24,861 nucleotides of DNA from a virus. Positions 13,300 to 19,197 of this stretch are shown in pieces; position 1 is the stretch's first letter, and the number at the start of each line of letters is the position of its first letter. The stretch lies in the IMG/VR virus record IMGVR_UViG_3300042471_001077, positions 1-24,861 of that record. The stretch is one strand, 5' to 3'. A program made the position numbers and the translations under genes. The notes beneath the pieces were generated by a model, which saw nothing but the letters and a program-made list of their open reading frames with translations, did no database searches and was not told the DNA's origin.

Positions 13300-13421
13300 C
13301 GTCGCGGAGCGGCGTCAGAGGGAGCCCGCGGAGCGGGTGTGGCATGGATGGATGGCCGGTCGGCGGATGGAGTCGCCGGCTGGGTGTGGATCGAGGACGC
13401 AGGACACGAGGAGGTGTGGAG
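13296..13421 (+). promoter_or_regulatory. GGA-rich structured leader, candidate CsrA target
   Basis: 126 nt between two operon genes with twelve GGA triplets (starts 13306, 13321, 13330, 13346, 13350, 13365, 13369, 13388, 13395, 13402, 13410, 13418). Four hairpins can be drawn. 13296-13318: 10-bp arms, loop GGA. 13325-13337: CCCGC/GCGGG, loop GGA. 13356-13383: 10-bp arms with two G-T pairs, loop GATGGAGT. 13404-13417: ACAC/GTGT, loop GAGGAG, which is the SD of the Sak4-like gene. GGA in a hairpin loop, including the SD, is the known CsrA recognition layout. The first two hairpins share the decamer CGCGGAGCGG. CsrA binding is inferred. Confidence 0.55.
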
Positions 13422-14644: not shown

Positions 14645-14849
14645 CGCGACGCCGTGGAAGCGGCGATTGGAGGATCACCAGCGGCGACTCGCTGAGGCGG
14701 AGCGAGTCGTCGGAGCGATGCGGAGCGGTGAGATGCCGTTCCGTGCGGGGTGGCCGCTGTTGATCGACATTGCCAGGGGTGAGGCCGACCGCGTGGTGCG
14801 GATCGGCAAGATGCACGAACCTGACCTGAAGACGGAGGGGGAAAAGTGA
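14631..14849 (+). CDS. Small helical protein, function unknown
   Basis: 72 residues from ATG 14631, overlapping the previous gene by 14 nt, with GGAGG 6 nt upstream. It begins with a basic helix, WKRRLEDHQRRLAEAERVVG, probably coiled-coil, followed by a short hydrophobic AGWPLLIDIARGEADRV helix. Its stop shares bases with the start of the SSB-like gene. Possibly a partner of one of the flanking DNA-metabolism proteins. No family recognised. Confidence 0.5.
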   Translation: MGWADATPWKRRLEDHQRRLAEAERVVGAMRSGEMPFRAGWPLLIDIARGEADRVVRIGKMHEPDLKTEGEK

Positions 14850-15400
14850 TGCAGAGCGATAATCTGAACTGGGATTTCTTCCCCGGCTGGGACGACCAGG
14901 CCGAGACCGAGGCGCGGCCGACGAACCTGCTGGAACCGGGCACCTACCCGGCCCGCGTCATCAAGGCCGAGGCCAGCTACCGGAACCGTGTCCCGGAGAA
15001 GTGGTCGGACACGAACCCCGAGGGGCGGCAACTGACGATCAAGCTGGCGATCAAGCACGCCGGCGAAGAGCACCACATCTACGTCGATCTTCCGGCGCAC
15101 TTCCGCGCCCTCATCGAGCGGGTGTGCGATGCCCTGTCGGCACCGCGGCCGGCGAAGGGAACCGCCTGGTCGACGGGGCTGCTGGTCGGCAAGCGGTGCC
15201 GCGTCGAGACCAGCCTCTACGAGGGTCGGCGGGTGAACGTGGACCGCTGGCTTCCGGACGACATCGTTGACAGCGGACGGCAGCCGGAGGCCGAGACGCC
15301 ACCGCCGGCCGCGAAGAAACTGCCCGCCCGGACGCCGGCACAGAAGATCGCCCGCGATGCCGGCGAGGAGCCGGGGAACAGCGACGACATCCCGTTCTGA
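14849..15400 (+). CDS. ssb-like: Phage single-stranded DNA-binding protein (SSB-like)
   Basis: 183 residues from ATG 14849; GTG 14846 is possible and would overlap the preceding stop. The N-terminal 130 residues are an OB-type candidate with the opening EPGTYPARVIKAEASYRN and a LTIKLAIKHAGEEHHIYVDL strand pair, as in DUF669-type phage ssDNA-binding proteins. A disordered Pro/Ala/Lys linker leads to the end NSDDIPF. This acidic DDIPF tip is the signature of bacterial SSB C-termini, which recruit replication and repair partners. It would coat single strands and help the Sak4-like ATPase upstream. A large hairpin follows the stop. Confidence 0.75.
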   Translation: MQSDNLNWDFFPGWDDQAETEARPTNLLEPGTYPARVIKAEASYRNRVPEKWSDTNPEGRQLTIKLAIKHAGEEHHIYVDLPAHFRALIERVCDALSAPRPAKGTAWSTGLLVGKRCRVETSLYEGRRVNVDRWLPDDIVDSGRQPEAETPPPAAKKLPARTPAQKIARDAGEEPGNSDDIPF

Positions 15401-15514: not shown

Positions 15515-16042
15515 ATGACCTACCTCACCGACCTTGAGCAGCTCATCGCCTGTGCCCCCCTACCGTCCCTGCGGGGCTACGCCAGCGGCAGCGTCCGGGC
15601 CGTGATCCTCGACGCCTGTGACTCCGGCAAGGTCGGGGCTGCCGACGCGCTGCAGCTGTCAAGGCAGTGCGACCACCGGATCGACACGGAGGGGGTGCAG
15701 TTCGGCCACCCCCGGCGGCCCGAGCCTTCGGCCCCGGCCGCGGAGCCGTCGCGGGCGCCGCTGCCGCCGCCGCTGATCCTCGAGGATCGGGAACTCGTCT
15801 CGTGCAGCCAGCGGCGATGGTCACCCGACGAGCCGATTCGGATCGCGGACACCGCCTGGGAGCAGCTGTCACGCCTTGAGAACTACGCGCTCGCGATCGA
15901 ACTGACGGACCTGCAGTCGTGTGACGACCAGTGGGACCAGCGGCGGAAGGATGCGATCTGGGCCGCGGTGTGCATCGAGCTGGAGTTGACGATGGCGGCC
16001 AGGGGGCTGCGGCTGCGGAAGGAGGTGGCGAGTGTCGCGTGA
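15515..16042 (+). CDS. Uncharacterised protein
   Basis: 175 residues from ATG 15515, with SD AGGAAG upstream. Residues 1-60 are helical (YLTDLEQLIACAPLPSLRGY), then a Pro/Ala-rich linker (PEPSAPAAEPSRAPLPPP) leads to a helical C-terminal half with WEQLSRLENYALAIELTDLQ and DDQWDQRRKDAIWAAVC. It is the first gene after the large hairpin and overlaps the winged-helix gene by 11 nt. Two helical domains joined by a flexible linker suggest an adaptor, but function is unknown. Confidence 0.5.
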   Translation: MTYLTDLEQLIACAPLPSLRGYASGSVRAVILDACDSGKVGAADALQLSRQCDHRIDTEGVQFGHPRRPEPSAPAAEPSRAPLPPPLILEDRELVSCSQRRWSPDEPIRIADTAWEQLSRLENYALAIELTDLQSCDDQWDQRRKDAIWAAVCIELELTMAARGLRLRKEVASVA

Positions 16043-16346
16043 GCCATGGAAGTCGCCGCCGCTTCCGTTGTGGGGCGCTGTGGCACGGGACTCCGACCAG
16101 CCGACCTCGCACGCGGCGGCGAAGCGCGCTCCGGTGTCGGAGCACTGCCGCAAGATCATCGACGCCCTGGCTGCCGGGCCGGCTGGACAGTCTGGGCTGG
16201 CCGAGCGGACGGGGCTGACCATCGCACAGGTGTCGAAGCGTCTGCCTGATCTGCGGCGGGCTGGGCTGGTCGAGCGGGACGGCGAGACGGTGTCGGCGAG
16301 TGGGGGGCGGGAGGCGAGGTACAGGAGGGTGACGCATGGCCGGTGA
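16032..16346 (+). CDS. Winged-helix DNA-binding protein
   Basis: 104 residues from GTG 16032, inside the end of the previous gene. The N-terminal region carries SDQPTSHAAAKRAPVSEH. Then comes a MarR/ArsR-like winged helix (residues 40-95): CRKIIDALAAGPAGQSGLAE, RTGLTIAQVSKRLPDLRRAG, and the wing LVERDGETVSASGGREARYR. The 'TSxxAAxK' start plus winged helix is a common arrangement in small phage proteins near replication genes. It may regulate this part of the operon or assist the initiator encoded next, whose start lies inside its end (11 nt overlap). Confidence 0.65.
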   Translation: MSREPWKSPPLPLWGAVARDSDQPTSHAAAKRAPVSEHCRKIIDALAAGPAGQSGLAERTGLTIAQVSKRLPDLRRAGLVERDGETVSASGGREARYRRVTHGR

Positions 16347-17316
16347 ATGGCTCGCCATCGACCTGGGCCTCCCCGAGAAGCCCGAGGTTCAGGAGCTCGT
16401 CGACCTGACCGGCGAATCGGTCGAGGTGGTCGTGTACCGCCTGTACCGGCTCTGGGGATGGGCCTCCCTCCACTCCGCGGACGGCACCGCCCGCACGACA
16501 CCAGCTCGGCTGGCCCGGACGATCGGCGGAGACGAGGCGTGGTTCCGGGCGGTGGCGGAGGTGGGTTGGCTCGAGATCGACGACCAGGCGGGGACGGTGA
16601 CCGTCCCCGGGTGGGATCGCCGGTTTTCCCAGGCGGCGAAGGCCCGGATGCAGGCCCGGGACCGCGAAAAAGCCTACGACGAGAGGGTCCAGCGTCCACC
16701 CGCGCGTGAGCGCGGGAAGTCACCCGCGCGCGAGCGCGGGTCCGCTCCCGCGCCTGAGAGTGGGAGAGGAGAGGAGAGGAGAGGAGAAGTTCCTCCTCCT
16801 CCTCCGCGTGAGGCTGCGCCGGAATCCGAGCAGGCATGGCCGGCGCTCCGGGACGCCTGGAACGCCCAGGATGCCCCTGGGAAGCCCTGGAGGCACCCGC
16901 AGCCGCCAGACGGTCTGGCCGACCGGCTCCGGGAGCCTGGCTGGCTGGACGAGGCCGTGGCGGCGATTCCGCGGCTCCGTGGGGCGAGGTTCTTCGCCAC
17001 CCCGGTGACGCTGATCCAGTTCGCCAAGCCGGGCTTCGTCGAGCGGCTGGTCGGCGGGCAGTACGACGAACCGAAGTCGCGGCCCCCCGGCACCCCTGGC
17101 GACCGCCCGTCCGCGGAGGAGGCGGCCCGTCGGTTCGAGGCCGGAAGCCGCGAGCAGGCCCGCCGCCGGCGGGAGGCGGAGGCGGCCCGGGCTGCGCGGC
17201 CGAAGGCGAAGGCGTCGAAGCCAGAGCTGCCGCTGCCTGATCCGGTCAGTGATGACGAGTTTGAGCGACGGAAGGCGGCATTGATGCAGCAACTCCAGGA
17301 GGCAGCGACCACATGA
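16336..17316 (+). CDS. Replication-initiator-like protein with embedded repeats
   Basis: 326 residues from ATG 16336, with SD AGGAGGGTGAC. Residues 1-100 form a winged-helix-like domain: WLAIDLGLPEKPEVQELVDL, TGESVEVVVYRLYRLWGWA, and WFRAVAEVGWLEIDDQAGTV, as in phage replisome-organiser or DnaD-like initiator N-termini. A low-complexity region (about 120-155) has the 8-residue repeat PARERGKS / PARERGSA / PAPESGRG. The C-terminal half includes AWPALRDAWNAQDAPG and a FFATPVTLIQFAKPGFVERL helix, then a charged tail. Its probable job is origin binding and helicase loading. The DNA of the repeat region has iteron-like properties, as in lambda O, where the origin is inside the initiator gene. The beta-clamp gene follows. 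Confidence 0.65.
   Translation: MAGEWLAIDLGLPEKPEVQELVDLTGESVEVVVYRLYRLWGWASLHSADGTARTTPARLARTIGGDEAWFRAVAEVGWLEIDDQAGTVTVPGWDRRFSQAAKARMQARDREKAYDERVQRPPARERGKSPARERGSAPAPESGRGEERRGEVPPPPPREAAPESEQAWPALRDAWNAQDAPGKPWRHPQPPDGLADRLREPGWLDEAVAAIPRLRGARFFATPVTLIQFAKPGFVERLVGGQYDEPKSRPPGTPGDRPSAEEAARRFEAGSREQARRRREAEAARAARPKAKASKPELPLPDPVSDDEFERRKAALMQQLQEAATT
16697..16764 (+). repeat. Three iteron-like 24-bp direct repeats, candidate origin
   Basis: Repeats start at 16697, 16721 and 16745, exactly 24 bp apart. Copies 1 and 2 (20-nt cores) differ at one base; copy 3 matches copy 1 at 16 of 20. Each of the first two has inverted arms CCCGCG and CGCGGG around a 6-nt centre. They lie inside the initiator-like gene and are followed by a purine tract. 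This resembles iterons inside the lambda O gene, although the region is GC-rich and lacks the usual AT-rich unwinding element. Confidence 0.45.
16763..16805 (+). repeat. Purine tract of GGAGA units followed by a pyrimidine tract
   Basis: About five copies of GGAGA (16763-16788), a short AAGT turn, then TCC repeats (16791-16805). The two tracts can partly pair, and polypurine-polypyrimidine DNA can also form triplex or slipped structures. It lies directly after the iteron-like repeats and codes for the Glu/Arg and Pro-rich linker of the initiator-like protein. It is prone to slippage. Confidence 0.5.
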
Positions 17317-18368
17317 AAGCCAAGATCCCAATCACCAGCATCAAGGCGTCCCTCGCGGCGACTGCCCCGGCGGTCGGCCGCCAGGGGGTGACGACGGCAG
17401 TCCTGATCCGTGGAGGCGTGATGGCCGCCACCAATGGCGAGATCCGGATCGATGTGGAGTTCCCCTCGTCGGATATTTCCTGCCTGCTGCCGCACAAGCG
17501 ATTGCAGGCGATCGTAAGCGCCGCTACGGGCGACGAGATGACGATCGAGCCGAAGGGTGAGTCAGTGAGGCTCACCGCCGGCAGCGGCTCGTGGACGCTG
17601 CCCACGGAGGACTGGCAGACGTTCCCCGCTGGGATCGCCGGCGAGGCCAGGAAGATCGGCACGGTCGAGGCCAGCGTCCTGGCGGACATGCTCCGGTCGG
17701 TGTTGCCATGCACTGATTCGGAGTCATCCCGCTATGCCCTCGGTGCCGTGCTCCTCGAGATGGCGGACGGAATCTTGCACGCGGTGGCGACCGACGGTCG
17801 CCGGCTGGGGGCCGCGACGACGCAGGCGCAGGCGGAAGACGGCACGCTCCTGATTCCGCAGGCTGCCGCGTCGGCTCTCGTGCGACTGCTTGAGTCGGCC
17901 GCGTCCGTGGCGATCATGCGGACTGGGCCGGAGGCGGTGTTCGCTGCCGACAACGGAGCGCGGCTTGTGGCACGGCAGATTGAGGGGCGGTTTCCGAGAT
18001 GGAGAGAGGTGATTCCGAAGACTGAGGCGGCGGCCTGCATCGTCGACGCTGGCGAACTGCTGTCAGCGGTGCGGCAGGCTTCGATCGTCACCAACGAGCA
18101 GTCGAGGGCGGTGCGGTTCGGGTTCGGCGACCAGATCACTCTGACCGCGAAAAGCGCCGAGGCTGGCGAAAGCCGTGTTCGGTGTGACGTGGTGACGGCC
18201 GGGCCGCGCTGCACGGTTGGGCTGGACCCGCGCTTCGTCGCCGAGTTTCTCAAGGTCGTTCCCGCCGGCGAGACGGTGTCGATCGCGGCGGTGGATGCCG
18301 ACACTGGGTGTGTGCTCCGTGCCGGGCGGTGGGTGGGCGTGGTGATGCCGATGGCAATGGAGGCTTGA
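17313..18368 (+). CDS. dnaN-like: DNA polymerase III beta-subunit (sliding clamp) homologue
   Basis: 351 residues from ATG 17313 (ATGA overlap), slightly shorter than bacterial DnaN (about 366). It shows the three-domain clamp pattern: an N-terminal domain ending in LPTEDWQTFPAG; a middle domain with SSRYALGAVLLEMADGIL, AVATDGRRLG, and RQIEGRFPRWREVIPKTE; and a C-terminal domain with VDAGELLSAVRQASIVTNEQ, DPRFVAEFLKVV, and the ending VGVVMPMAMEA, equivalent to the MPMR end of DnaN. The clamp encircles DNA and tethers polymerase. A phage copy beside the initiator would favour phage replication. It may recruit a host polymerase; none is encoded in this window. Confidence 0.85.
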   Translation: MKAKIPITSIKASLAATAPAVGRQGVTTAVLIRGGVMAATNGEIRIDVEFPSSDISCLLPHKRLQAIVSAATGDEMTIEPKGESVRLTAGSGSWTLPTEDWQTFPAGIAGEARKIGTVEASVLADMLRSVLPCTDSESSRYALGAVLLEMADGILHAVATDGRRLGAATTQAQAEDGTLLIPQAAASALVRLLESAASVAIMRTGPEAVFAADNGARLVARQIEGRFPRWREVIPKTEAAACIVDAGELLSAVRQASIVTNEQSRAVRFGFGDQITLTAKSAEAGESRVRCDVVTAGPRCTVGLDPRFVAEFLKVVPAGETVSIAAVDADTGCVLRAGRWVGVVMPMAMEA

Positions 18369-18896: not shown

Positions 18897-19197
18897 CATG
18901 ACGATTCAAGAGTTCTGCGATCTCCACGGCGCGTGCCGCGAGAACCGCGAATGGGCGATGGAAAATTGCCAGACGATGCGCGAGGTCTGGGAAACCGCAA
19001 AACCACTGTGGCTGATATGGGTCGCAACACGACCAGGCGTGCTGAGTGAACGAGAGCTGTGCCTGGCAGCCATGGCCGGGGCCTGGGCCGCAGCCGAGGG
19101 CTGGGCCGCAGCCGAAGCCGCGCAGGCCGAGTGGCTGCGAACGAACTGCACTCCGCGATTCGCACGGGTGGCGGGCAAAGAGGAGGTGACGGCGTGA
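18889..19197 (+). CDS. Small alpha-helical protein
   Basis: 102 residues from ATG 18889, preceded by the long G-rich SD region GGAGGAGGGGGGGGC. It is helical throughout: TIQEFCDLHGACRENREWAM, then VWETAKPLWLIWVATRPGVL, and a near-repeat AGAWAAAEGWAAAEAAQAEW toward the end. The 5-6 residue Trp-Ala-Ala-Ala-Glu repetition suggests a local duplication. The GTGA overlap links it to the next gene. Common phage hypothetical; no function assigned. Confidence 0.5.
   Translation: MADMTIQEFCDLHGACRENREWAMENCQTMREVWETAKPLWLIWVATRPGVLSERELCLAAMAGAWAAAEGWAAAEAAQAEWLRTNCTPRFARVAGKEEVTA

Follow-up and report, generated by a model that had tools for sequence, protein, structure and literature searches.

A candidate lambda-like replication origin within a phage initiator gene, beside a putative recognition helix that covaries with its iterons

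The initiator gene and its surroundings

The window, as we call the whole stretch of 24,861 nucleotides of viral DNA that was analysed, carries an initiator gene whose product matches the profile phrog_2509 'replication initiation protein' over residues 1-173 (E 1.6e-19) and phrog_9474 (E 3.1e-13); the products of its relatives match as well. No Pfam family, RepA_N included, was found above the cut-off for the window initiator. A sequence match to the PDB entry 8g8i (E 4.5e-12) was set aside as probably spurious, no stretch of it passing on its own. The gene lies within an early cluster, in which a Sak4-like annealing protein is encoded at 13344, a small winged-helix protein at 16032, a beta clamp at 17313 and, at 14846, a protein with an SSB-like acidic tail. 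This last protein (14846-15400) terminates with NSDDIPF and belongs to no clear family. In the relatives checked, the spot of the beta clamp after the initiator is taken instead by resolvases or methyltransferases, or the terminase soon follows. None of the window proteins tested was recognised as a helicase or loader in profile searches. A DnaC-like gene is present downstream of the initiator in PAN70, phiPSA1 and Rac, accompanied by DnaB in PAN70, and in TL-2011b and epsilon15 the equivalent of the C-terminal part belongs to Pfam DnaT. The DnaC-like neighbour and the DnaT part support the role of the protein as an initiator.

The AlphaFold2 model of the window protein consists of a confident N-domain, a single long helix (residues 100-119), a disordered stretch (about 120-166) and a helical C-domain (Table 1). 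Three residues of the putative recognition helix, K102, R104 and R110, are invariant. According to this model, the repeat array sits in the DNA that encodes the disordered stretch, where the constraint on the protein is predicted to be least.

Table 1. Coordinates of the features of the initiator gene and of the gene that follows it (positions in the window)
Feature	Position	Strand	Basis or details
Initiator gene, 326 aa: N-domain, disordered linker, C-domain	16336..17316	+	phrog_2509, phrog_9474
Winged-helix-like N-domain, residues 1-104	16336..16647	+	AF2 pLDDT mostly above 90
Putative recognition helix, residues 100-119	16633..16692	+	AF2; covariation with iteron type
Disordered linker hosting the candidate origin, residues 120-166	16693..16833	+	AF2 pLDDT ~46-55, residues 121-160
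Iteron copy 1	16697..16720		half-sites CCCGCGC 16699-16705, GCGCGGG 16710-16716
Iteron copy 2	16721..16744		half-sites CCCGCGC 16723-16729, GCGCGGG 16734-16740
Iteron copy 3, degenerate	16745..16768		CCCGCGC 16747-16753, second arm GAGTGGG 16758-16764
Purine tract (GGAGA pentamers), candidate unwinding element	16756..16789	+	codon-shuffle p = 0.005; duplex stability
(TCC)5 triplet tract, read as proline	16791..16805	+	triplet repeat kept in relatives
Helical C-domain, residues 167-250, presumed replisome recruitment	16834..17085	+	AF2
Phage DNA polymerase III beta clamp, next gene	17313..18368	+	phrog_947 1.4e-50, Pfam DNA_pol3_beta_3 2e-11

A repeat array in the DNA of the linker

The earlier note had described three 24-bp repeats with inverted GC arms, exactly 24 bp apart and followed by a GGAGA purine tract, inside the initiator gene. 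Such repeats were indeed found at 16697-16805. Two good copies at 24-bp spacing (79% alike) were recovered, while the third copy proved degenerate. TRF reported a period of 24 at 16697-16753, with a score of 72 which is the top score in the window, and the purine tract as (GGAGA)5 at 16763-16787. The exact 24-bp spacing holds in the window but is peculiar to its iteron class, since most relatives have 22 or 23 bp. Synonymous recoding of the same protein stretch gave a null mean of 3.8 for the inverted-repeat score, compared with 15 in the window (p = 0.02), and the 36-bp segment at the purine tract is the least stable of the window's initiator gene. Taken in the window alone, the excess of palindromes and purine runs is modest. 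An 18-bp tandem repeat (GCCGAGGCCTGGGCCGCA, 2.5 copies) occurs in another coding region of the window (19075-19119).

Conservation of the array among relatives

Scans of viral contigs and named phages yielded 178 sequences with the gene, the window included, of which 80 were non-redundant in the linker at 93%; every one of these 80 was inspected at the same place. A search of genome contigs for further relatives found none. The inverted-repeat score averaged 14.5 over the 80 linkers, compared with 3.8 in synonymous-codon shuffles and 3.2 elsewhere in the genes, and exceeded the codon shuffles at p <= 0.05 in 57 of the 80. Across these 80 linkers, the recurrence of the same layout puts the array far beyond chance.

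The half-sites vary in sequence from phage to phage (CCTGCGC, CCCGCGC, CCGGCGC, CCGACGC, CGTGCGC, GGGGCGC, GTAACGC, GTCCGG, GTCCGC, TGTCACA and others), and their orientation alternates about every 11 bp. With one hexamer fixed per class, the linkers themselves having been classed by their half-sites, in 235 of 266 cases neighbouring half-sites lay 9-14 bp from each other. Spacings between half-sites of like orientation included 22 bp (72), 23 bp (66) and 11 bp (17), and only 25 of all 192 such spacings were multiples of three. This scarcity of multiples of three indicates that the reading frame varies across copies of one DNA motif. The most recurrent half-site occupied at least two frames in 72 of the 80 linkers, a count in which the choice of the most recurrent motif per linker favours repeats. 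In one relative (L011), the 18-mer GCGCACGCACCCGTGCGC occurs twice, 23 bp apart, and is read as AHAPVR and then, in another frame, within RTHPCA. On these counts, the 24-bp period of the window appears as a rare case that mimics a protein repeat. The earlier note had held that free divergence of the repeat DNA at synonymous sites, under a kept protein repeat, would speak against an origin; the relatives displayed the opposite. Another linker (L090) differs from the alternating arrays of the others in having six direct copies of GTCCGG at an exact 11-bp interval.

Purine runs beat the codon shuffles at p <= 0.05 in 66 of the 80 linkers. In 74 of 80, the 36-bp segment at the purine tract ranked within the 2% of the gene with the lowest duplex stability, a rank that is slightly helped by taking the best position within 15 nt. 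After the purine tract, the relatives have a triplet tract of 9-18 nt made of TCC, TTC, TCA or ACC, which is read as runs of P, S, H or T, with TCC and TCA each in two frames. From this comparison, the triplet tract is kept as DNA and read as different amino acid runs. A DnaA-trio reading of this tract was rejected: it would suit TTC/GAA, but not TCC, TCA or ACC. The purine tract gave the only megablast match (L484, 901-943) between ydaU of Rac 442/2 and a DnaT-type initiator gene of E. coli F11, and may for this reason be a joint between modules.

Covariation of the putative recognition helix with iteron type

For the covariation analysis, which covered 39 rows from the subfamily to which the window belongs, iteron classes were assigned from the DNA only, as were four manual corrections. 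The mean excess MI with iteron class was 0.150 in the helix compared with 0.009 in residues 1-104, and the six best columns were residues 114, 107, 111, 108, 115 and 118. Residues 107, 108, 111 and 114, which track iteron type, are all located on one predicted helix just before the iterons, and 107, 111 and 114 are spaced as a single helical face. With half-site positions numbered in our own alignment of the iteron classes, Q114 was found in 15 of 15 rows with T at position 3 and in 0 of 24 with another base, A or S108 in 21 of 21 with G3, and Q, E or D107 in 12 of 12 with A4 and also in 4 of 27 with G4. Exceptions, some of them in the held-out set, led us to give up a strict code for residues 107 and 108. 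Nine later linkers were consistent except L464, which is poorly classable, and the 107 and 108 rules had exceptions.

Since the helix and the iterons are neighbours in the DNA, shared inheritance contributes to the covariation. From residue 103 on, however, synonymous codons in and beside the helix were not associated with iteron class (z below 1.5), which makes linkage a poor explanation by itself and weakens it as the sole cause. Further upstream, codons 94 and 102 reached z values of 4-5. In this set of sequences, iteron type ignores the phylogeny of the N-domain; on a tree of residues 1-104, iteron class changes 19 times, compared with a shuffled mean of 21.4 (39 rows). Well-supported branches provided only five independent pairs, all of them concordant for T3/Q114 (p = 0.0625). 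These comparisons suggest that the iteron array is very probably bound by the initiator encoded around it.

A cassette-like exchange of helix and iterons between close relatives

The genes L052 and L149 are 87-100% identical, mostly 97-100%, from nucleotide 2 to about 300, and 97-100% identical again for about 300 nt from nucleotide 429; at about 330-425 the identity is 33-63%. According to this alignment, the two differ in a cassette-like block of about 110 bp which holds the end of the helix and the iterons. Carin1 and SAC are 60% identical in a stretch of the N-domain, and their helix and iterons differ (GTCCGC versus GTAACG). BUCT711 and ST11-OXA245phi3.2 have the C-terminal part in common and different N-modules and iterons. 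Members of the family include Rac YdaU of E. coli 442/2, SPN1S, phiPSA1, PAN70, TL-2011b and epsilon15, whose array consists of two direct and two inverted half-sites. A more general proposal is that a self-contained cassette of about 110 bp, with the helix and its sites, has been swapped repeatedly among near-identical initiators, under a legible residue-to-base code and driven by the avoidance of incompatibility, satellites or origin-directed defences; we consider the odds for and against it to be about even.

The candidate origin and its alternatives

The earlier note had proposed an origin inside the initiator gene in the manner of lambda O, and the relatives' arrays with their frame independence make it the best-supported reading. 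We put a probability of roughly 0.87 on a lambda-like intragenic origin at 16697-16805, for which we infer origin activity, with an initiator that would read its own coding sequence via a swappable cassette. This reading draws on the array, its phasing and frame independence, the weak duplex, the covariation and the cassette-like difference between close relatives, all of them features of the sequences. N-domains would contact the phased CCCGCGC half-sites with their terminal helix (residues ~105-118); about one half-site would fall on each helical turn, and successive ones would face opposite ways. The assembled initiator complex would then melt the neighbouring purine tract, the weakest stretch of the gene, the C-domain would recruit the helicase or primosome, and replication would start here. 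Because a stretch of about 110 bp takes in both the helix and its target, the two could be exchanged together, and the origin type could be switched without changing the rest of the initiator. GC skew, a check proposed in the earlier note, gave no origin signal in the window or in six contigs of 40-45 kb; since it tracks gene direction and the genes share one direction, the skew carries no information here. No exact DnaA box (TTWTNCACA) was found in the window.

Iteron-binding initiators often autoregulate, and the array might bind the protein mainly for repression of its own gene or for copy-number control, the origin being elsewhere. We regard this as quite unlikely, since the array lies more than 360 bp inside the gene and adjoins its weakest duplex stretch, the placement and layout are as in lambda, and this region is the densest half-site cluster of the contig in all six contigs of 40-45 kb. 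Just as improbable is an RNA element for gene regulation, in which the palindromes would form hairpins in the mRNA, and the purine and TCC tracts would imitate ribosome-binding sites or cause pausing. The iteron region does fold strongly as RNA (z = -5.8), but direct 11-bp arrays, such as that of L090, and the partly direct array of epsilon15 need no hairpin, and duplex DNA would account for the helical phasing and for the covariation with a protein helix. Selection on the peptide, which the earlier note had raised and by which the DNA repeat would be a by-product of the 8-residue unit PARERGxx, would account for the PARERGxx repeats and for a period that is a multiple of three in the window, but is hardly credible because the relatives keep the DNA motif across frames at 22, 23 or 11 bp and not the peptide, the palindromes exceed synonymous shuffles and the repeat-coded linker is predicted to be disordered.

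Comparison with known systems

Origins inside initiator genes are already known from ori-lambda and RepA_N plasmids (PMC7466680, PMC5703833). Here, many natural variants display an origin type that appears to switch freely among close relatives, and a few helix residues that follow it. In lambda O, the iterons occupy nearly the same place in the gene (nt 349-433, compared with nt 362-429 here). As in the present family, they are palindromic and spaced at 20-24 bp, mostly not multiples of three, and a purine-rich weak stretch comes straight after them. The family differs from lambda in its many types of GC-rich half-site, in its triplet and GGAGA tracts, and in the position of the predicted recognition helix, which closes the N-domain and lies beside its target. 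An alignment of the family's N-domains had no profile similarity to the single lambda O sequence compared (hhalign probability 0.1%); N-domain homology was not seen at this level, and a very distant link is possible.

The RepA_N plasmid initiators, such as that of pSK41, have a winged-helix N-domain and carry the origin in the rep gene between the N- and C-domains (PMC5703833). They are also the best structural matches of the N-domain described here, albeit weak (Z 6.2, 3.0 A over 83; Foldseek E above 0.1), and the Pfam RepA_N domain had no match in the window initiator or its relatives. In PLE satellites, the origin and the N-domain of RepA covary and are exchanged modularly under attack by an origin-directed nuclease (PMC8263062). 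Unlike in PLE and RepA_N, the unit exchanged here can be about 110 bp rather than a whole domain. Extra copies of the origin arrest lambda (PMC4488673); together with the attack on PLE origins, this means that plausible pressures for origin switching exist. Sequence data make two questions testable: which pressure favours new origin types, and how an initiator can acquire another DNA target and still function. In geminivirus Rep, whose iteron-related domain offers a further likeness, initiator specificity and iteron sequence differ together among close relatives (PMC12548392, PMC2974675). Rep is an unrelated rolling-circle initiator, and its iterons lie outside the coding region, unlike here.

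The family may help the annotation of origins in many phages and prophages, the Rac family of E. coli included. The Rac prophage was reported to have an active origin, oriJ (PMC3945230), and Rac YdaU of E. coli 442/2 has GTAACG half-sites and a purine tract. In E. coli K-12, YdaU (L483 405-1262, K-12 MG1655p) has a DUF1376 N-domain and the linker repeats TGTTCAAACA/TGTTTGAACA; the two YdaU proteins have the C-terminal part in common and differ in N-domain and repeats. This comparison suggests that the different N-domain of K-12 YdaU also keeps its sites in the linker.
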